The notes under the pieces: generated by a model | Seen by the model: the letters and a program-made list of their open reading frames with translations, nothing else | What the model was told of the DNA's origin: nothing | Databases searched by the model: none | Program-made: the position numbers and the translations under genes | Origin: Natrarchaeobius oligotrophus | GTDB lineage: Archaea > Halobacteriota > Halobacteria > Halobacteriales > Natrialbaceae | Direction: 5' to 3' | Assembly: GCF_003841465.1 (NCBI RefSeq) | Contig: NZ_REFZ01000002.1 | Location: forward strand, 124,001 to 188,000 | DNA: 64,000 bases | In this document: one piece after another, positions 28,394 to 53,726 of the stretch | How the letters are laid out: every line of letters starts with the position of its first letter | Numbering within the stretch: the first letter of the stretch is position 1

Positions 28394-28831
28394 TGCAGAT
28401 TGCTATTATTTAACATGCTACAATAACTTTTCCCTACCCTCGAGCGAACGCCGTCCCACGATTTTCGTCGACGATCGGGGGGATTCCCAGCTGATCGTCG
28501 CTTTCGATTCGCTGCCGTATGGCGATTCATCGCGGCGTATCGCTCCGATTTTCGGGGATTGTAAAGCGCCGTTTCCCAAACGGTATCGGAATTCGGTCGC
28601 CACCGCAAGACTCGACCGTGCGCTCACCCCGTCGATCCGCGCCGTGTTCGCGTGTACCGGTCGTTTCGGTCCGCAATCGGTCCACCGAACGACGTGTCCG
28701 GTCCGTCCCCCTCGAGAGCAGTCGCTCGCCACGCCGAACGTCTGCGCTGCGAAGAGATCGCCACCCCACTCAGGTGCGGCCGAAACGGAACTAGACGCGT
28801 TGCTCCGTCTCGAGGTGCGGCCGAAACGGAA
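28394..28831. other. 438-base gap with no recognised gene, ending in a tandem repeat
   Basis: Open frames here are arginine- and serine-rich and unlike halophilic proteins. The right end (from 28772) is a tandem repeat copied from the end of trxB. Confidence 0.5.
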
Positions 28832-28864
28832 CTAGACGCGTTGCTCCGTCTCGAGGTGCGGCCG
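28772..28864. repeat. 41-bp tandem repeat at the trxB stop codon
   Basis: AGGTGCGGCCGAAACGGAAC... starts at 28772 and again, identically over 41 bases, at 28813; the first 11 bases recur at 28854 inside trxB. The unit includes the last codons of trxB (LETEQRV and the stop), so the gene end has been duplicated downstream of the gene. Confidence 0.8.
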
Positions 28865-29887
28865 ACTCTCGGCGCGCATAGCGTGTTCTTCGAGCCACTG
28901 CTCGGCGTCGAGGGCGGCCATACTTCCGGTTCCGGCGGCCGTGATCGCCTGACGGTAGTCTGGGTCCATCACGTCTCCTGCGGCGAAGACGCCCTCGAGC
29001 GCGGTTTCGGTCGTCATCCCTGCCTCGGTTAGGATGTGCCCGTCCTCGTCGAGTTCGACGCCCGTCCCCTCGAGAAACGACGTGTTCGGGACGTGGCCGA
29101 CGGCGTAGAAGACGCCGCCGACGTGGACGGTCTCGCGTTCGACGTCCTCGTCGGCTGCGGGCGCGCTCTCTTCGAGTTTGGTCTTCGGACGCCCGTCGGG
29201 ATGGTGGACGAGGATCGCGCCGGTGACGCCGGTCTCCTGGGTGCCGTGAATCTCGAGCAGTTCAGCGTTCCAGCGAAACTCGATCGAATCGTGTTCGCGT
29301 GCCCGCCGGGCCATAATGTCCGACGCGCGGAGTTCGTCGCGTCGGTGGACGACCGTGACGCTGTCGGCGAACTTCGCGAGGAAGAGCGCCTCTTCCATCG
29401 CCGAATCGCCGCCGCCGACGACGATCACGTCCTCGCCGCGGTGGAACGCGCCGTCGCAGGTGGCACACGTCGAGAGTCCGTACCCCATCAGCTCGTCTTC
29501 GCCGTCTGCGCCGACCCAGCGCGCGCTCGCGCCGGTCGCGACGATCAGCGCTCGCGTGGTGACGACGTCGTCGGTCGACAGTTCCAGCTCGAACGGCCGA
29601 TTCTCGAGTGTGGCGTCTTCGACGCTGCCGTGGACGAACTCGGCGCCGAACCGCTCGGCCTGCGCCTTGCCGCGCTGGATCAGCTCCATCCCGCCGATTC
29701 CGTCGGGGAAGCCGAGGTAGTTCTCGACGCCGGTCGTTAGCGTCAGCTGTCCGCCGGGCTCGGGCCCTTCGAGGACGAGCGGCTCGAGGTCGGCGCGCGC
29801 GGCGTAGATTGCGGCCGAGAGGCCGGCCACGCCGGAGCCTACGATCACGACGTCTCGAACCTCGATCTCGCCGGTATCCGTGCTCAT
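28832..29887 (-). CDS. trxB: Thioredoxin-disulfide reductase
   Basis: A 351-residue flavoenzyme that reduces thioredoxin. The FAD motif is IVGSGVAGLSAAIYAARA, the redox-active pair is CATC (STCATCDGAF), the second nucleotide motif is VVGGGDSAMEEALFLAKF, and the C-terminal FAD segment is GVFAAGDVMDPDYRQAIT. The start ATG 29887 overlaps the stop of trxA (ATGA), so the two are translationally coupled. The family is very reliable; cofactor choice (NADH or NADPH) is not clear from the motif, as archaeal members vary. It heads the thiol island and shares the trxA promoter with its TWTTG-N11-CAATA site. Confidence 0.95.
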   Translation of the reverse strand: MSTDTGEIEVRDVVIVGSGVAGLSAAIYAARADLEPLVLEGPEPGGQLTLTTGVENYLGFPDGIGGMELIQRGKAQAERFGAEFVHGSVEDATLENRPFELELSTDDVVTTRALIVATGASARWVGADGEDELMGYGLSTCATCDGAFHRGEDVIVVGGGDSAMEEALFLAKFADSVTVVHRRDELRASDIMARRAREHDSIEFRWNAELLEIHGTQETGVTGAILVHHPDGRPKTKLEESAPAADEDVERETVHVGGVFYAVGHVPNTSFLEGTGVELDEDGHILTEAGMTTETALEGVFAAGDVMDPDYRQAITAAGTGSMAALDAEQWLEEHAMRAESRPHLETEQRV

Positions 29888-46436: not shown

Positions 46437-47678
46437 ATGCACGCTCCATCACTCTCGGATCGATCGATCGAAGCGTACGCTTCCGTGACGGGGCGCAAGC
46501 GACTCGAGCGTCTCCGGTCGCTCGCCGACGCGCTGGCGGACGTCCGGATCCTCCACGTCAACTCGACCGCGACCGGCGGTGGCGTCGCCGAGTTGCTTCG
46601 ATCGATCGTTCCGCTCTGTACCGATCTCGGTATCGACACCGACTGGCTCGTCATGGACGGCGACGACGAGTTCTTCGAAGTTACCAAAGCGATGCACAAC
46701 GGGCTCCAGGGAAGCGGTCCTTCGCTGACCGAAGGGATGAAAGCGACCTATCGTGCGGTAACCGAGCGAAACGCGCGCGAGTTCGACGGGGAATACGATT
46801 TCGTCGTGATTCACGATCCGCAGCCGCTCGGTATGATCGATCGACTCGAGGAGACGATGCCGGACGCGCCGATCACCTGGCGCTGTCACGTCGACCTCAC
46901 GGATCCCTCCGACGAGTATCTCGCGTTCGTCTCCGAATACACGAGCAGAATCGACCACGCGGTTTTCAGCCGATCCGCCTACGAAATCGAGATCGACGCA
47001 CCGACGACGATCGTCTACCCGTCGATCGACCCGCTGACGGAGAAGAACCGCTCGCTCGACGAGGGAACGATGGCGAACGAACGCGACAGACTGTACCCGC
47101 TGTCGTTCGACGCTCCGGTCGTGACGCAGGTGTCGCGGTTCGATCCGTGGAAAGATCAGTTCGGTACGCTCGAGGCGTACCGTCGTGCACGCGAAAGGGT
47201 TCCGGACCTCCAGCTCGCGCTGGCCGGGGGGATGGCCGGCGACGATCCGGAGGGAGAGAAGCTGTACGAGCGGGTCGCCGGAGAAGCGGTCGACGATCCG
47301 AACGTTCACGTGCTGGCCGATCTGCCCGACGCGAGGGTGAACGTCCTGCAGCGTCTGTCGGACGTCGTCGTCCAGAAATCGTTGCGCGAGGGGTTCGGAC
47401 TCGTCGTCTCGGAGGCGCTCTGGAAGCGAACGCCGGTCGTGGGCTCGAACGTCGGCGGGATTCCGCTGCAGATCGAAGACGGGAAAACCGGCTATCTCGT
47501 CGACCCGGAGGACGCCTCGGGCGCTGGAGACCGCGTCGCGGATCTCCTCGAGGACGATCGCCGTCGAACGGAGTTCGGCGAACACGCTCGGGAGCACGTT
47601 CGCGAGCGCTTTCTGTTACCCCGTCAGCTCGTCGATCTGCTCGAGGTCGCCGTCGACGCGCTGGACCGGTCGAAATGA
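46437..47678 (+). CDS. GT4 glycosyltransferase, trehalose synthase (TreT)-like
   Basis: A 413-residue GT-B enzyme. The first domain starts RILHVNSTATGGGVAELL, which follows the TreT family (trehalose from nucleotide-glucose and glucose). The C-terminal GT4 signature is VVQKSLREGFGLVVSEALWK, then GSNVGGIPLQIEDGKTG. It also contains PLGMIDRLEET and HVDLTDPS, typical of TreT. Trehalose is a known compatible solute in haloarchaea, so an osmotic role is plausible. The adjacent sugar nucleotidyltransferase (48727-49701) may supply donor. Confidence 0.85.
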   Translation: MHAPSLSDRSIEAYASVTGRKRLERLRSLADALADVRILHVNSTATGGGVAELLRSIVPLCTDLGIDTDWLVMDGDDEFFEVTKAMHNGLQGSGPSLTEGMKATYRAVTERNAREFDGEYDFVVIHDPQPLGMIDRLEETMPDAPITWRCHVDLTDPSDEYLAFVSEYTSRIDHAVFSRSAYEIEIDAPTTIVYPSIDPLTEKNRSLDEGTMANERDRLYPLSFDAPVVTQVSRFDPWKDQFGTLEAYRRARERVPDLQLALAGGMAGDDPEGEKLYERVAGEAVDDPNVHVLADLPDARVNVLQRLSDVVVQKSLREGFGLVVSEALWKRTPVVGSNVGGIPLQIEDGKTGYLVDPEDASGAGDRVADLLEDDRRRTEFGEHAREHVRERFLLPRQLVDLLEVAVDALDRSK

Positions 47679-47799
47679 CGTCTCGCGCCGAGTGTGACAG
47701 TCCCTCTGACGTCGGTTCGTCGACAAGTCGAGGGGCGGACTGCACGTCGCCACCGGGTCCCACACAATTATCCGCTGCGACGGTGAAGACGAGAGGGCT

Positions 47800-48702
47800 A
47801 TGAGCCGGCCCATCGACTCGATACTGATACCGACGGACGACAGCGAGGGGGCCCTCGCAGGAGCGAAACGGGGAATTGCGCTCGCATCACGAACCGACGC
47901 GAACGTGCACGTGCTCTCGGTCGTCGACGTTCCCGACGACTCGCCCGAGATCATCGATGCGGCCGACTCGCTACGCTCGACGCTCGAGGCCGACGCGGAA
48001 GACGCGGTGGAAACCGTCGCGGAGATGGTGTCCGCCCACGATTCGGGTCTCGACGTGACGACGACGGTCAAGCGGGGAACGCCGTTTCAGACGATCCGAG
48101 AGTACGCGAAGCGACGCGAAATCGACGTCGTCGCCATGGGAACGAAAGGGAGGACGGGGCTGGACAGGGTCCTCCTCGGAAGCGTCACCGAGAACGTCCT
48201 CCGCACGGCGAGAACCCCCGTGCTCGCCGTTCCGCCGAACGCGGACGCGCCCGAGATCGACGACGTCGCGTTCGACGATCTCCTCGTGCCCACGGACGGC
48301 AGCGACGGCGCCGCGATCGCCGCCGACTGGGGTGTCGCGCTCGCAACGCAACTGGACTCGATGGTTCACGCGGTGTACTCCGTCGACACGGGTCGCGTGT
48401 CGCGGGTCCAGGAGCCGGACGAAATTCTGGCGGCGCTCGAGCACAGAGGCGAGGGGGCGATCGACGCGATTCGGGAGCGTGCCGGCGACGCCGGCGTCGG
48501 CGTCTCGGGAACGGTCGCGACCGGCTCGCCGGTAGACGTGATCCTCACGACCGCAGGTGAACGCGCCGTCGATCTGATCGTCATGGGGACGCACGGCCGA
48601 ACCGGTATCGGCCAGTGGTTTCTCGGGAGCGTCACCGAGAACGTGGTTCGACAGACCGACGTCCCGGTGTTTTGCGTCCCGGTCAGCGCGGAGTCGCCGT
48701 GA
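47800..48702 (+). CDS. Universal stress protein, tandem UspA domains
   Basis: A 300-residue protein with two Usp domains: SILIPTDDSEGALAGAKRG at the start and DDLLVPTDGSDGAAIAADWG at about 161. The ATP loops GTKGRTGLDRVLLGSVTENV and GTHGRTGIGQWFLGSVTENV are both intact. It is better conserved than the Usp at 34 kb and lacks the operator. ATG 47800 is the start. Confidence 0.9.
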   Translation: MSRPIDSILIPTDDSEGALAGAKRGIALASRTDANVHVLSVVDVPDDSPEIIDAADSLRSTLEADAEDAVETVAEMVSAHDSGLDVTTTVKRGTPFQTIREYAKRREIDVVAMGTKGRTGLDRVLLGSVTENVLRTARTPVLAVPPNADAPEIDDVAFDDLLVPTDGSDGAAIAADWGVALATQLDSMVHAVYSVDTGRVSRVQEPDEILAALEHRGEGAIDAIRERAGDAGVGVSGTVATGSPVDVILTTAGERAVDLIVMGTHGRTGIGQWFLGSVTENVVRQTDVPVFCVPVSAESP

Positions 48703-48726
48703 CGGGTCCCGCGACGCGCACCGCTA

Positions 48727-49701
48727 TCAGGGCTGGGAATCGCTCGGAATCTGCGTGTACGCGCCGATCATTGCATCGTAAAGGTCGATTCCGCCGAGCG
48801 ACGCGCCCTCGTCGACGATCGATCGGCGCACGGTCGTCGCCTCGAGCGTCACGTCCGGGAAGACCACCGCCCGTTCGACCGTGGCGTCGACGAGTGTCGC
48901 GTCCGACAGCACGTGGACGTTCTCGCCGACCGTCGCGTTCTCGAGGGTCGCCGTCTCGTCGACGCGCGACTCGCCCCCGAGTTTCCAGGCGACTGCGTCG
49001 AGGTAGCTCTCGCGGGTACCGACGTCGAACCAGGTCCCGTCGAACGTGTACGCGTACGTCGGCTCCCGCGACTGGAGCCACTGGACGAACCAGCCCGGCT
49101 CGTCGGGGTCGTTCCCCGCCTCGAGGTAGGTGGGAAAGAGCGAGAGCGTCTCGCGCGGAAACGCGTAACAGCCGATCGAGACGCGCGTGCCGGCCGGCTC
49201 GTCGGGCTTTTCCTGGAAGCCGACTACGCGGTCGTCCTCGAGGTCGACGACGCCGTATCCGGTCGCTCGCTCGGTGGAACCGACGTCGTATGCGGCGATC
49301 GTCGGCGCGTCGATTCTGTCGTAGTAGTCGAGAAAGCTCGCGAGCTCGAAATCGAAGACGTTGTCGCCGGCGATCACCAGGAGATCGTCGTCGATCCCCT
49401 CGCGGTCGATCAGCTGAGCCAGCGCGGCGACGACGCCGAACTTCTCGTCTTCCTCGCGCGTCCGTTCGATCGAGAGGCGCGGTTTCTCGTAGCCGCGTTC
49501 CGCGAGCGCCGCCTCGAAGTCCGAGGCGAAGCGCTCGTTGGTGCTGACGTACACGTCGTCGATTCGCTCTTCGATCTCGAGTTCGGCGTAGATGCGGTCG
49601 ATGACGGTGCTCTCCCCGAGCGGGAGGAACATCTTCGGCCGGTGTCTCGTGATCGGCCACAGTCGCGTGGCGTACCCACCGGCGAGGACGATAGCGTCCA
49701 T
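48727..49701 (-). CDS. Sugar nucleotidyltransferase (glucose-1-phosphate thymidylyl/UTP transferase type)
   Basis: A 324-residue enzyme. The signature is LAGGYATRLWPITRHRPK at residues 6-23, followed by a central VIAGDNVFD Mg-binding site (about 110) and a left-handed helix C-terminal part with hexapeptides (VGENVHVLSDATLVD). It makes an NDP-sugar from NTP and a sugar-1-phosphate. Substrate sugar cannot be fixed; it might feed the TreT-like enzyme next door or glycosylation. It starts at ATG 49701. Confidence 0.88.
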   Translation of the reverse strand: MDAIVLAGGYATRLWPITRHRPKMFLPLGESTVIDRIYAELEIEERIDDVYVSTNERFASDFEAALAERGYEKPRLSIERTREEDEKFGVVAALAQLIDREGIDDDLLVIAGDNVFDFELASFLDYYDRIDAPTIAAYDVGSTERATGYGVVDLEDDRVVGFQEKPDEPAGTRVSIGCYAFPRETLSLFPTYLEAGNDPDEPGWFVQWLQSREPTYAYTFDGTWFDVGTRESYLDAVAWKLGGESRVDETATLENATVGENVHVLSDATLVDATVERAVVFPDVTLEATTVRRSIVDEGASLGGIDLYDAMIGAYTQIPSDSQP

Positions 49702-49865
49702 CCGCTCAGACCGCCTCCGACTGGTCGAGATCGTTTCTTCCGCCGCGGCTCACGTGAATCGCTATCCGGTTCGTGTTCATACGGATCAGGGAGGATCCCG
49801 GACGTGAGCTCCCACGCCACCGGTGGTAAATCTTTCATCGCCCCAGAATCGCGACGAGTCGCGAA

Positions 49866-52142
49866 TCACGCCTCCTCGAGTTCGGCGACGGTGAGCAGCG
49901 TCTCGACCGCGACGTCGGGTGACACCGAGATCGAATCGATCCCGGCGTCGAGCAAGAACTCGACGTACTCCGGGATCGTCGACGGCGCGTCGCCGCAGAT
50001 GCCGACCGGCCGACCGTGGCTGTGGGCCTCCTCGATCAACGAGCCGATCGACCGCGTGACCGATTCGTCGGTCTCGTCGAACAGGGGCGCGAGTTGCTCC
50101 GAGTTGCGGTCGACGCCGAGGGTCAACTGCGTGAGATCGTTCGACCCGATCGAGAAGCCGTCGAACAGTTCGGCAAAGCGATCTGCAAGCACGATGTTCG
50201 AGGGGAGCTCCGCCATCACCCAGACGTCCACCTCCTCGCGAGAGAGCCCGTACTCGGCCATCAACTCGAGAACGCGTTCTCCCTCTTCGGGCGTGCGACA
50301 GAACGGAACCATCACGACGACGTTGTCCAGTCCGACGTCCTCGCGAACGCGCCGGAGCGCCTCGCACTCGAGTCGGAACGCCTCGCGAAACTCCTCGTCG
50401 TAGTAGCGGGAGGCGCCGCGCCAGCCGATCATCGGGTTCGCCTCCGCCGGCTCGTACTTCCAACCGCCCTCGAGGTTGCGGTACTCGTCGGTCTTGAAGT
50501 CGCTGAGCCGAAAGACGACCTCGTTCGGGTAGAAGGCGGCTCCGATCTTCGCGATGCCTGTCCGCAACGCGTCGATGAATCGCTCCTCCTCGCCACGCTC
50601 GAGCAGCTCCAGGGGGTGATAGCCGACGTGGGAAGTCACAATGAACTCCTCGCGCGCCAACCCGACGCCGTCGACCGGCAGGTTCGCGAGCGAGAACGCC
50701 CGCGCGGGATCGCCGAGGATCAGCTTCACGTCGGTGTCGGTCTCCGGGAGGTCGTCGATCGCCTCTTCGGTGACCTCGTACTCGAGTTCGCCCTCGAAGA
50801 CCCGCCCGACGTCGGTCGAACAGTCGACCGTCACGGCGGTGCCGTTCGCCAGCGTCTCGGTGGCGTCGCCGGTGCGAACGATCGCGGGAATCCCGAGTTC
50901 CCGGGAGACGATCGCCGCGTGGGAGGTCTTGCCGCCCCGGTCGGTTACGATCGCGCTCGCTCGCTTCATCACGGGAACCCAGTCCGGGTCGGTCATCTCC
51001 GTGACGAGGACGTCGCCCTCCTCGACCCGATCCATCTCCCGGTGATCGTCGAGAACCCGGACGGGGCCGGTCGCGACGGCGTTTCCAATCGCGATCCCCT
51101 CACGGAGCTCGTCGGCGGACTCCGCGAGGCTGTACGTTCGGATGACGTTCCCGTCGGCCGCCCCGTGGACCGTCTCCGGCCTGGCCTGGACGACGAACAG
51201 CTCCTCGAGTTCGCCGTCGACGAGCCACTCGACGTCCTGGGGGACGCCGAAGTGGTCTTCGATGCGACTCGCGTACGTCGCGAGCTCCCGGATCCGGTCG
51301 TCCGAGAGCGCGAACTCCGCCCGGGCGTCTTCGGGGACCGGCTCGAGTTTCGTGCCCCCGTTGCGCCGAACCATCCGCTGGGTCTTTCCGCCGAGTTCCT
51401 TCTCGACGATTCCGTTCGTGGGTTCGAAGACGACGTACCTGTCCGGATCGACCACGCCCTGAACGACGGGCTCGCCGAAGCCGTAGGCCGCCTCGATGAC
51501 GACGACGTCGTCGAAGCCGGTGTCGGGATCGAGGGTGAACAACACCCCCGAGGACGCAATATCCGCACGCCCCATCTTCTGGACGGTGCAGGCGAGTTTC
51601 ACCGCGAGGTGGTCGAAGTCGTTGTTCTCGCGGTAGGCGATCGCGCGGTCGGTGAACAGCGAGGCGAAACAGTGTTTGATCGACTCGAGCAGTTCCGTCG
51701 GCCCGGCGACGTTCAGGAACGTCTCCTGTTGGCCCGCGAAAGAGGCGTCCGGCAGATCCTCGGCGGTCGCGGAACTCCTGACGGCGACCTCGGGGTCGTC
51801 GATCTCCAGCCGGCTTCCCAGCTCCTCGTACCGCTGGACGATCGCGGACTCGAGGTCCGCGGGCATCTCCGCGTCCGCAATCAGGCTTCGTACTCGCTGT
51901 CCGCGTCGCTGCAGATCCGAGACGTCGTCGGCGTCCAGCCCGGTGAGTTCGGACTCGATCGCCTCGCGGGTGCCGGTCCGCTCGACGTAGAAATCGTACG
52001 CGCCGGCCGTCGTCGTAAAGCCCGGTATCACCGGCACGTCGAGATCGGCGAGTTCCCCGAGGTTCGCGCTCTTTCCGCCGACAGATCCCGTATCGGCGCT
52101 GCTGACGTCCTCCAGCCACCGAACGAATGTATTTTCTTCCAT
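49866..52142 (-). CDS. ppsA: Phosphoenolpyruvate synthase
   Basis: A 758-residue enzyme converting pyruvate, ATP and water to PEP, AMP and Pi in gluconeogenesis. Domain order: ATP-grasp-like N-terminal part (GSVGGKSANLGEL, residues 20-32), the swivelling phosphohistidine domain (GGKTSHAAIVSRELGIP at about 400) and the C-terminal TIM barrel with GICGDAPS (Cys and Asp of the active site). ATG 52142 opens the reading frame. It diverges from the ADP-dependent phosphofructokinase gene, and the shared 195-base gap carries a 3 x 25-bp tandem repeat. Confidence 0.95.
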   Translation of the reverse strand: MEENTFVRWLEDVSSADTGSVGGKSANLGELADLDVPVIPGFTTTAGAYDFYVERTGTREAIESELTGLDADDVSDLQRRGQRVRSLIADAEMPADLESAIVQRYEELGSRLEIDDPEVAVRSSATAEDLPDASFAGQQETFLNVAGPTELLESIKHCFASLFTDRAIAYRENNDFDHLAVKLACTVQKMGRADIASSGVLFTLDPDTGFDDVVVIEAAYGFGEPVVQGVVDPDRYVVFEPTNGIVEKELGGKTQRMVRRNGGTKLEPVPEDARAEFALSDDRIRELATYASRIEDHFGVPQDVEWLVDGELEELFVVQARPETVHGAADGNVIRTYSLAESADELREGIAIGNAVATGPVRVLDDHREMDRVEEGDVLVTEMTDPDWVPVMKRASAIVTDRGGKTSHAAIVSRELGIPAIVRTGDATETLANGTAVTVDCSTDVGRVFEGELEYEVTEEAIDDLPETDTDVKLILGDPARAFSLANLPVDGVGLAREEFIVTSHVGYHPLELLERGEEERFIDALRTGIAKIGAAFYPNEVVFRLSDFKTDEYRNLEGGWKYEPAEANPMIGWRGASRYYDEEFREAFRLECEALRRVREDVGLDNVVVMVPFCRTPEEGERVLELMAEYGLSREEVDVWVMAELPSNIVLADRFAELFDGFSIGSNDLTQLTLGVDRNSEQLAPLFDETDESVTRSIGSLIEEAHSHGRPVGICGDAPSTIPEYVEFLLDAGIDSISVSPDVAVETLLTVAELEEA

Positions 52143-52187
52143 CGATCTGTCGTGCAGACCACGTGGACGGTAATAAGTCGGCGGGGA

Positions 52188-52262
52188 TCACAGAACGTAC
52201 GAGTCCCAGACGTCACAGAACGGACGGTTTCCCGAAGTCACAGAACGTACGGGTCCAGAACG
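52188..52262. repeat. Three 25-bp tandem repeats in the ppsA / ADP-PFK divergent promoter
   Basis: Units begin TCACAGAACGTACGAGTCCC (52188), TCACAGAACGGACGGTTTCC (52213) and TCACAGAACGTACGGGTCCA (52238), period exactly 25. The conserved TCACAGAACG-T/G-ACG core begins each unit. They lie between a gluconeogenic and a glycolytic gene and may be operator iterons, or a duplication by slippage. A TATA-like GTAATAAG at about 52170-52177 serves ppsA; no clear TATA for the other gene. Confidence 0.7.
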
Positions 52263-52337
52263 CACTCCCGCGTATCGGGGAGGTTCGATCGTGGCACGCA
52301 CAGCATTAACTCGCTGGCGCTGGGAGCACCCCGTGTC

Positions 52338-53726
52338 ATGGCAGGCGATCACTCCCAGCTGGAGGCTGACGTACGGGCACTCGACGGACTGCCCGTGTTC
52401 GTCGCGTACAACGCGAACGTGGACGCGATCGTCCGGGTCGACGAGGACCTCGAGTCGTTTCTCGAGCGACCGCCCGATCCCGGCGACCGCCACCCGCCCA
52501 GTCCGCTCGCGTCGAAACGCGACCTCGCGACGGCGATCACGCACACGATGGCGGCCGGCCGCGGCGACGAAGTCGCGATGACCGACGAGTTCGCGGCGAC
52601 GCTCGAGACCGAGTTGCCCCCGGACAGCCAGCAGATGGGCGGCCAGACGGGAATCATGACCAATCTCGTCTCCTCGCTCGGGGCCGCGCCGATCACGTAC
52701 ACCTACCTGATCTCGGACAGGCAGCTTTCGATGTTCGACCACCCCGACGCGGTGACGTACCCGATGGTCGAAGACGGCGAAGTGGAGTTCGTCCCGCTGG
52801 ACGAGGCGGTCAACGCCGAACGAACCAAGATCAACTGGGTGTTCGAGTTCAGGGTTGGCGACGAACTCTTCGACGTTCGAGCGATCGAAGACACCCGGTT
52901 CATCGCGGCCTCGAGACCGCCGGAGTTCGACCTCGTCGCCGGCGACCTCGACGCACACGTCGACCAGATCGGCGACGTCGTCGACGGGGCGTTGCTCGCC
53001 GGTTATCACAACCTCACGCCCGACCACGTCGAGGAGGACTACGAGCAGGCACATCGGCACGCTCGAGACGTCATTCGTCGACTCCGATCCGGGGGCGGGA
53101 GCGACCTCATGGTACACGTCGAGTACGCCGTGACCCACGACGACGACCTGCGAGAGAGCATCTACGAGTGGATCCTGCCGGAGGCGAACGTCGTCGGCGC
53201 GGACACTCACGAGCTCACCATCCTCCACGAGGACGCTGGACTCGGCGTCGTCGACTCGCCACCGAGCGAGGAGACCGCGTTCGAACCCGACGAAATTCTC
53301 GCCCACTTTCGCATGCTCTCGGCGCTGCGTGAGGAACTCGGCGTCGACTGCATCCGGTTACACGCGATGGAGTACCACCTCGCGGTGATGGACTCGTATC
53401 TCCCCCCGACGGCGGTCGAGCGCGGACTGGAGTTCGCCGCCGTCAACGCCGCGACGAAGGCGGCGCTCGGCGACGTCACCTCCCCCGACGACCTCGAGAC
53501 GGGACTCGAGTACGAGCCCTCCGAGAACGGGAAAGCGGCGATCGGCCTCCTCGCGGATCACGTCGGCGAGACGGCCGACGACGGCGTCCTCTACACCCCG
53601 ACGGTCGCCGCCTGTCCCAACCGCGTCGTCGACGAACCCGCGGGAACGGTCGGAATCGGCGATATCGTCTCCGCTTCGAGCTTCGTCCTCGAGTTGGCGG
53701 TCGCCAACGGCGACGAGGAGCCGTAG
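52338..53726 (+). CDS. ADP-dependent phosphofructokinase/glucokinase
   Basis: A 462-residue ribokinase-fold sugar kinase of the archaeal ADP-dependent family. Conserved segments are VFVAYNANVDAIVRV at residues 18-32, QMGGQTGIMTNLVSSLGA, VVGADTHEL and the catalytic GTVGIGDIVSAS near the C-terminus. It phosphorylates glucose or fructose-6-phosphate using ADP as donor. I chose ATG 52338 (MAGDHSQLEADVRAL) because the family begins there; an open frame extends far upstream only by chance through the ppsA antisense. The opposite pathway direction to ppsA suggests switching between glycolysis and gluconeogenesis. Confidence 0.9.
   Translation: MAGDHSQLEADVRALDGLPVFVAYNANVDAIVRVDEDLESFLERPPDPGDRHPPSPLASKRDLATAITHTMAAGRGDEVAMTDEFAATLETELPPDSQQMGGQTGIMTNLVSSLGAAPITYTYLISDRQLSMFDHPDAVTYPMVEDGEVEFVPLDEAVNAERTKINWVFEFRVGDELFDVRAIEDTRFIAASRPPEFDLVAGDLDAHVDQIGDVVDGALLAGYHNLTPDHVEEDYEQAHRHARDVIRRLRSGGGSDLMVHVEYAVTHDDDLRESIYEWILPEANVVGADTHELTILHEDAGLGVVDSPPSEETAFEPDEILAHFRMLSALREELGVDCIRLHAMEYHLAVMDSYLPPTAVERGLEFAAVNAATKAALGDVTSPDDLETGLEYEPSENGKAAIGLLADHVGETADDGVLYTPTVAACPNRVVDEPAGTVGIGDIVSASSFVLELAVANGDEEP

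Follow-up and report, generated by a model that had tools for sequence, protein, structure and literature searches.

The gap between two divergent genes of Natrarchaeobius oligotrophus, a soda-lake haloarchaeon of the Natrialbaceae, holds a tandem repeat array that is real and for which chance is excluded. One of the genes encodes PEP synthase (PPS) and the other probably ADP-dependent phosphofructokinase (ADP-PFK). We tentatively read the array as a lineage-specific cluster of binding sites that abuts the PPS promoter and would act mainly on PPS, a reading that stands about level with non-functional tandem duplication. Lineage-specific tandem amplification is very likely the origin of the array under either reading. 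At best, the array would be a local means of control gained recently, not an old switch between the synthesis and the breakdown of sugar.

The repeat array and its setting

The features below are numbered by their position in the window, the whole stretch of 64,000 nucleotides that was analysed.

49866 to 52142, minus strand: gene for PEP synthase (pyruvate, water dikinase), PPS; TIGR01418, 1030 bits against a cut-off of 740
52171 to 52187, minus strand: putative PPS core promoter; TATA-like ACTTATTA (52171-52178) and BRE-like CCCCGCCG (52179-52187)
52188 to 52212, plus strand: repeat unit 1, TCACAGAACGTACGAGTCCCAGACG; core TCACAGAACGTACG (52188-52201), linker AGTCCCAGACG; orthologue in N. chitinivorans TCACAGAACAGACGGGTGCGGTAG
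52213 to 52237, plus strand: repeat unit 2, TCACAGAACGGACGGTTTCCCGAAG; core TCACAGAACGGACG (52213-52226), linker GTTTCCCGAAG; orthologue in N. chitinivorans TCACAGACCGTACGGGGCCCGGCGA
52238 to 52253, plus strand: repeat unit 3, core TCACAGAACGTACGGG; read as 25 bp (52238-52262), TCACAGAACGTACGGGTCCAGAACG; orthologue in N. chitinivorans TCATAGACCGTACGGG
52254 to 52266, plus strand: degenerate fourth copy, TCCAGAACGCACT, 16 bp past unit 3, aligned with N. chitinivorans
52306 to 52326, plus strand: putative ADP-PFK core promoter; TATA-like TTAA (52306-52309) and conserved TTAACTCGCTGGCGCTGGGAG
52338 to 53726, plus strand: gene of the ADP-dependent phosphofructokinase/glucokinase family; PF04587, E 6e-91

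The sequence and a repeat finder agree on an exact period of 25 bp over three units starting at 52188, 52213 and 52238. TRF reports a period of 25, 3.0 copies and a score of 97, which describes head-to-tail similar units and hence a tandem repeat. Shuffling the 195-bp gap 5000 times with its dinucleotides preserved gave threefold runs of 8 at most, allowing up to one variable column, compared with 14 in the real gap. The three 25-bp repeats that the sequence-only reading had placed at 52188-52262 are borne out by these results, with one correction at the end of the array: the start and core of the third unit stand, while the last nine bases assigned to it are the start of the fourth copy. The units share the core TCACAGAACG-T/G-ACG and their linkers have diverged. 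The counterpart of the fourth copy in N. chitinivorans, CCACAGAACGTACT, is almost intact and found in the same place. A coding repeat was ruled out, as 25 bp is not divisible by three.

The copies are spaced by 25, 25 and 16 bp here and by 24, 25 and 16 bp in N. chitinivorans, none of these spacings being a multiple of the helical turn. When held against multiples of 10.5 bp, the spacings in both species exclude simple same-face phasing. That 25 bp amounts to 2.4 helical turns had been pointed out before; the figure is correct and counts against such phasing. The core is not palindromic, and its only self-complementary part, a CGTACG hexamer, is lost in unit 2 and in unit 1 of N. chitinivorans.

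By its domain matches (PF01326, PF02896 and PF00391) and its score above the model cut-off, the minus-strand gene is a bona fide PEP synthase. The plus-strand gene belongs to the PF04587 family and is probably ADP-PFK; the ADP-PFK model TIGR02045 is its best NCBIfam match, at 203 bits, below the 408-bit cut-off. TATA-like boxes are located about 30 bp upstream of both start codons (29-36 nt for PPS), and both transcripts are probably leaderless or almost so. On the PPS side, the array begins 10 bp from the TATA box, abutting the far side of the BRE-like stretch; on the ADP-PFK side, it stops about 40 bp short of the TATA box. Being upstream of both boxes, it lies outside both likely transcripts.

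The two genes are part of a larger cluster (46437-53726) with genes for a TreT-like trehalose synthase, a universal stress protein and a sugar-phosphate nucleotidyltransferase. The cluster is also kept together in N. chitinivorans, as a single 7.3-kb match, and in N. swarupiae. It is conceivable that the PPS/ADP-PFK pair serves sugar or trehalose synthesis and is not an opposing switch.

Distribution among relatives and frequency of tandem repeats

We compared the gap in genomes with ADP-PFK, counting a genome when PPS diverges from ADP-PFK and has an intact start. The divergent pair is found in 13 other named species: N. chitinivorans (strain AArcht4, used as the nearest relative), Natrialba swarupiae, Halostagnicola sp. 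A-GB9-2, two Natronococcus isolates, N. pandeyae, two Natronolimnohabitans, Natrinema hispanicum, Natribaculum breve, Natronorubrum halalkaliphilum and two Halobellus. We count N. swarupiae as a congener on its placement in Natrarchaeobius by the genome collection.

Only one of the 13, N. chitinivorans, has the array, also with four copies. In the other 12, the best match to the core is 3 to 6 mismatches off and no better than in shuffled gaps, the lowest shuffle fraction being 0.07 (Halobellus inordinatus). The 129-bp gap of N. swarupiae holds no copy of the core, and none was found upstream of PPS in relatives where PPS is not beside ADP-PFK. The sequence-only reading had proposed that a core and spacing conserved among relatives would support an operator, and presence here only would support slippage. 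The result falls between the two, with a near-identical layout in N. chitinivorans and absence from 12 other species with the pair.

Nor does the core recur as a regulon. The whole genome holds no second tandem pair of it, and among 125 family genomes the tandem core is found only here and in N. chitinivorans, all other matches being scattered, unrelated repeats. The single near-consensus matches (at most 1 mismatch) that were inspected elsewhere mostly fall in coding sequence or stand alone between genes, beside unrelated ones; one coding match, TGTCCGGTCTGTGAC, encodes the CPVCD motif of a zinc-finger protein. There is no recognisable regulon for the core. The reading from sequence had also suggested that the repeats may be a set of operators by which the cell switches between glycolysis and gluconeogenesis. 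The layout shared with N. chitinivorans and a core that changes less than the linkers speak mildly for the operator part of this claim. A general switch is unsupported, since the array is absent from 12 other species with the pair, one of them a congener, and lacks a regulon; it could be at most a lineage-specific add-on.

Several further observations concern the locus in relatives. The fourth member of the genus, with a 3.5-Mb genome (G002), is without ADP-PFK and without this type of PPS. Among the family genomes searched, this PPS type is found only in those having ADP-PFK, and three relatives (L050, L057 and L061) have only PPS fragments beside ADP-PFK. These fragments suggest repeated loss of this PPS. 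Two relatives (L042 and L059) have a fructose-1,6-bisphosphatase gene directly upstream of ADP-PFK on the same strand, and another (L025) has one for a DeoC/LacD-type aldolase there. The locus is about 92% identical to that of N. chitinivorans, and the published ANI of the likely strain pair is 80.9% (PMC12343721). We do not claim a recent transfer of the locus, as the identity of neighbouring segments varies from 74 to 91%. For a plasmid or virus origin, viral contigs gave no tandem core, and plasmids and phages gave no match to the array.

How often such arrays occur was estimated by TRF on 464 kb of this genome, which hold about 300 intergenic gaps and include 20 sampled stretches of 20 kb. 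About a dozen other non-coding arrays with a score of at least 60 were found, some perhaps lying in missed genes. In a distant relative (genome G021; L030, about 1500 bases upstream of ADP-PFK), this gap carries a threefold tandem duplication of its own, about 40-47 bp long and unrelated in sequence, which takes in the ADP-PFK TATA region; of PPS, just pieces are left close to the gene. Given the dozen comparable arrays and this duplication, a tandem repeat between interesting genes is unsurprising by itself. One array tested for calibration is not kept in N. chitinivorans; of the other calibration arrays, one is without shared flanks and one is a different kind of repeat. Perfect or near-perfect repeats are also seen elsewhere: the window has a 41-bp unit in 2.3 copies, 100% identical, at 28772-28865, and another part of the genome (L161:7594-7876) has two adjacent near-perfect intergenic arrays, one with 4.1 copies of a 16-bp unit and the other with 3.9 copies of a 56-bp unit.

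Explanations for the array

To explain the array as a cluster of binding sites, we propose that a 25-bp element multiplied in tandem within this gap in the ancestor shared with N. chitinivorans, either after the split from N. swarupiae or with loss in that split. The 14-16 bp core (TCAYAGAMCRKACGGG) would be a probable candidate site for a DNA-binding protein, giving three to four sites that run from just upstream of the PPS BRE/TATA to about 40 bp before the ADP-PFK TATA. In the simplest case, the protein would act on PPS from the upstream side, either recruiting or excluding TFB/TBP. The array would then be a lineage-specific overlay, the older control elements being those between TATA box and start codon. 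That such a cluster would act mainly on PPS is suggested by its position: it abuts the PPS BRE/TATA, where TrmBL1-type activators act. By analogy with this upstream placement (PMC4706686, PMC10817205), the position of the array would favour the binding-site reading.

Further support comes from how the array has changed since the two species separated. When the core is fixed in advance from this genome and the fourth-copy bases are excluded from the linker, orthologous cores are identical at 36/42 positions and linkers at 11/23 (P=0.003, this genome against N. chitinivorans), and variation within the core is confined to four columns. The copies of N. chitinivorans alone give the same contrast at P=0.028, with the fourth-copy bases left unmasked. 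When three tandem units were simulated with one rate throughout the two-species history, again with the fourth-copy bases kept out of the linker, the contrast had P<=0.0004 for the predefined core; correcting for a scan of all 14-bp windows brings P to about 0.03-0.05. Moreover, the four copies have retained a near-identical layout despite about 20% divergence at fourfold-degenerate sites. The contrast between core and linker is suggestive and mildly favours binding sites, but is not a proof of them.

The closest competitor is that the array is a promoter minisatellite, a non-functional product of slippage or recombination in a tolerant gap that two sister species inherited, and we hold this to be about as probable as the binding-site cluster. 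Under neutral duplication, the core/linker contrast would be a small-sample effect, or would come from linker misalignment and shuffling of units. Absence from the 12 other named species with the pair, N. swarupiae included, the frequency of comparable arrays and the separate duplication in the same gap of the distant relative are all in its favour. So is the level of conservation itself. Fourfold-degenerate sites of the flanking genes are 79-81% identical between the two species and the array as a whole 74%; the core, at 86%, shows no excess over the fourfold sites at 80% (P=0.43), and the linkers are if anything faster-changing than these sites. Since the core is no better kept than the fourfold sites, the contrast stems from unusually divergent linkers. 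What neutral duplication accounts for less readily is the contrast found with a predefined core and the persistence of a four-copy layout in two species; of the other arrays, one that was tested is not kept in N. chitinivorans, the remaining calibrations being uninformative. The binding-site reading in turn has to contend with a core that only equals the fourfold sites, the weaker P values after scanning, spacings off the helical turn, a non-palindromic core without a regulon or a match to any known regulator motif, and occurrence in two genomes only.

It is improbable that the length of the array matters and not its sequence, such that about 75 bp of extra DNA would separate nearly back-to-back promoters and uncouple them. 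Most Natrialbaceae with the pair have gaps of about 98-116 bp in which both BRE/TATA regions nearly touch, compared with 195 bp here and 194 bp in N. chitinivorans, and Halostagnicola sp. A-GB9-2 has a 229-bp gap of unrelated sequence; both points are in favour of spacing. Spacing leaves the preservation of core over linker unexplained, and in N. swarupiae, whose gap is 129 bp, no need for extra length is apparent.

Less probable still is that the array is the target of a TrmB-type sugar regulator, either haloarchaeal TrmB or TrmBL1 of Thermococcales. In its favour, TrmB activates ppsA in Halobacterium salinarum (PMC10817205), and in P. furiosus the ADP-PFK gene PF1784 is a binding target of TrmBL1 (PMC4706686). 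The published TrmB box in the form that the sequence-only reading had quoted, TACT-N7/8-GAGTA, has no match in the whole window, as that reading had noted for the array. The gap has no match to the Thermococcales glycolytic motif (TGM), TATCAC-N5-GTGATA, within 3 mismatches, and the window has 6 such matches against 8.8 expected. The core also does not resemble the partly palindromic 19-bp site of TrmB, as TCACAGAACGTACGGG is self-complementary only in CGTACG. The least probable explanation, an RNA-level element such as a structured leader, small RNA or attenuator, has nothing but the repeat itself in its favour. The array lies outside both likely transcripts, shows no folding beyond that of shuffles for either strand (z 0.57 to 1.62) and belongs to no Rfam family. 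Scans for bacterial sigma-70 promoters and terminators, whose models are not apt for archaea, found nothing.

Conserved promoter elements and known systems

Candidates for a conserved switch of the pair are found outside the array, in two deeply conserved promoter elements. The ADP-PFK element TTAWCYCGCTGSNNCTGGGAG, between TATA box and start codon, is kept in 24 Natrialbaceae sequences at a nearly constant distance, its TTA beginning 31-33 nt before the start codon. It is also kept where the upstream neighbour is not PPS, and it is unique in this genome. Around it, 37/37 bases (52301-52337) are identical with N. chitinivorans. We regard TTAACTCGCTGGCGCTGGGAG at 52306-52326 as a candidate operator in a repressor-like position. 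At PPS, the promoter footprint CCCC..CGAACTTATTRTCGTCCGCGTGGTC..GAGTGACAG (52143-52187, minus strand) is conserved over 12 species with the pair, as is CCCC..CGAACTTATT of the core promoter in 12 species, and its TATA and GTGGTC parts are also found in some relatives where PPS is away from ADP-PFK. Conservation drops right at the start of the array.

In a bolder form of the binding-site reading, which we consider unlikely, tandem amplification at the PPS promoter would have made a new multi-site operator whose regulator couples PPS and ADP-PFK in the two sister haloarchaea, with relatives using single elements downstream of TATA. If the array is functional, it would be a small natural case in which tandem duplication, inside a single genus, gave an archaeal promoter a cluster of binding sites, the repeat-free congener serving as a control, and a true operator would be a recent gain of cis-regulation through repeat expansion in archaea. 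If it is not, the array is one among many intergenic tandem repeats. For a search for the true regulator of the pair in Natrialbaceae, the two conserved elements are the better place to begin.

The array shares with intergenic minisatellites of prokaryotes its head-to-tail units of about 25 bp, its restriction to a lineage and its imperfect copies. It differs from a free-running minisatellite in that its core and linker seem to have diverged unequally and in that two species keep its layout, neither of which a minisatellite need show. The TrmB regulon of haloarchaea (Halobacterium salinarum, Haloarcula hispanica) resembles it in that TrmB targets ppsA in H. salinarum, and gluconeogenic genes, from sites that lie upstream of the promoter (PMC10817205), but uses a partly palindromic 19-bp motif, and its published box is not in the window. 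In the TGM/TrmBL1 system of Pyrococcus furiosus, ADP-PFK and gluconeogenic genes are likewise controlled from sites upstream or downstream of BRE/TATA (PMC4706686), an upstream site leading to activation and a downstream one to repression (PMC4706686); TrmB in haloarchaea follows a similar position rule (PMC10817205). The TGM, however, is a single palindrome with a genome-wide regulon, whereas the array has three to four direct, non-palindromic copies, no regulon and two species only. The conserved elements downstream of TATA occupy the same place as the repressing TGM at the P. furiosus ADP-PFK gene PF1784 (PMC4706686).
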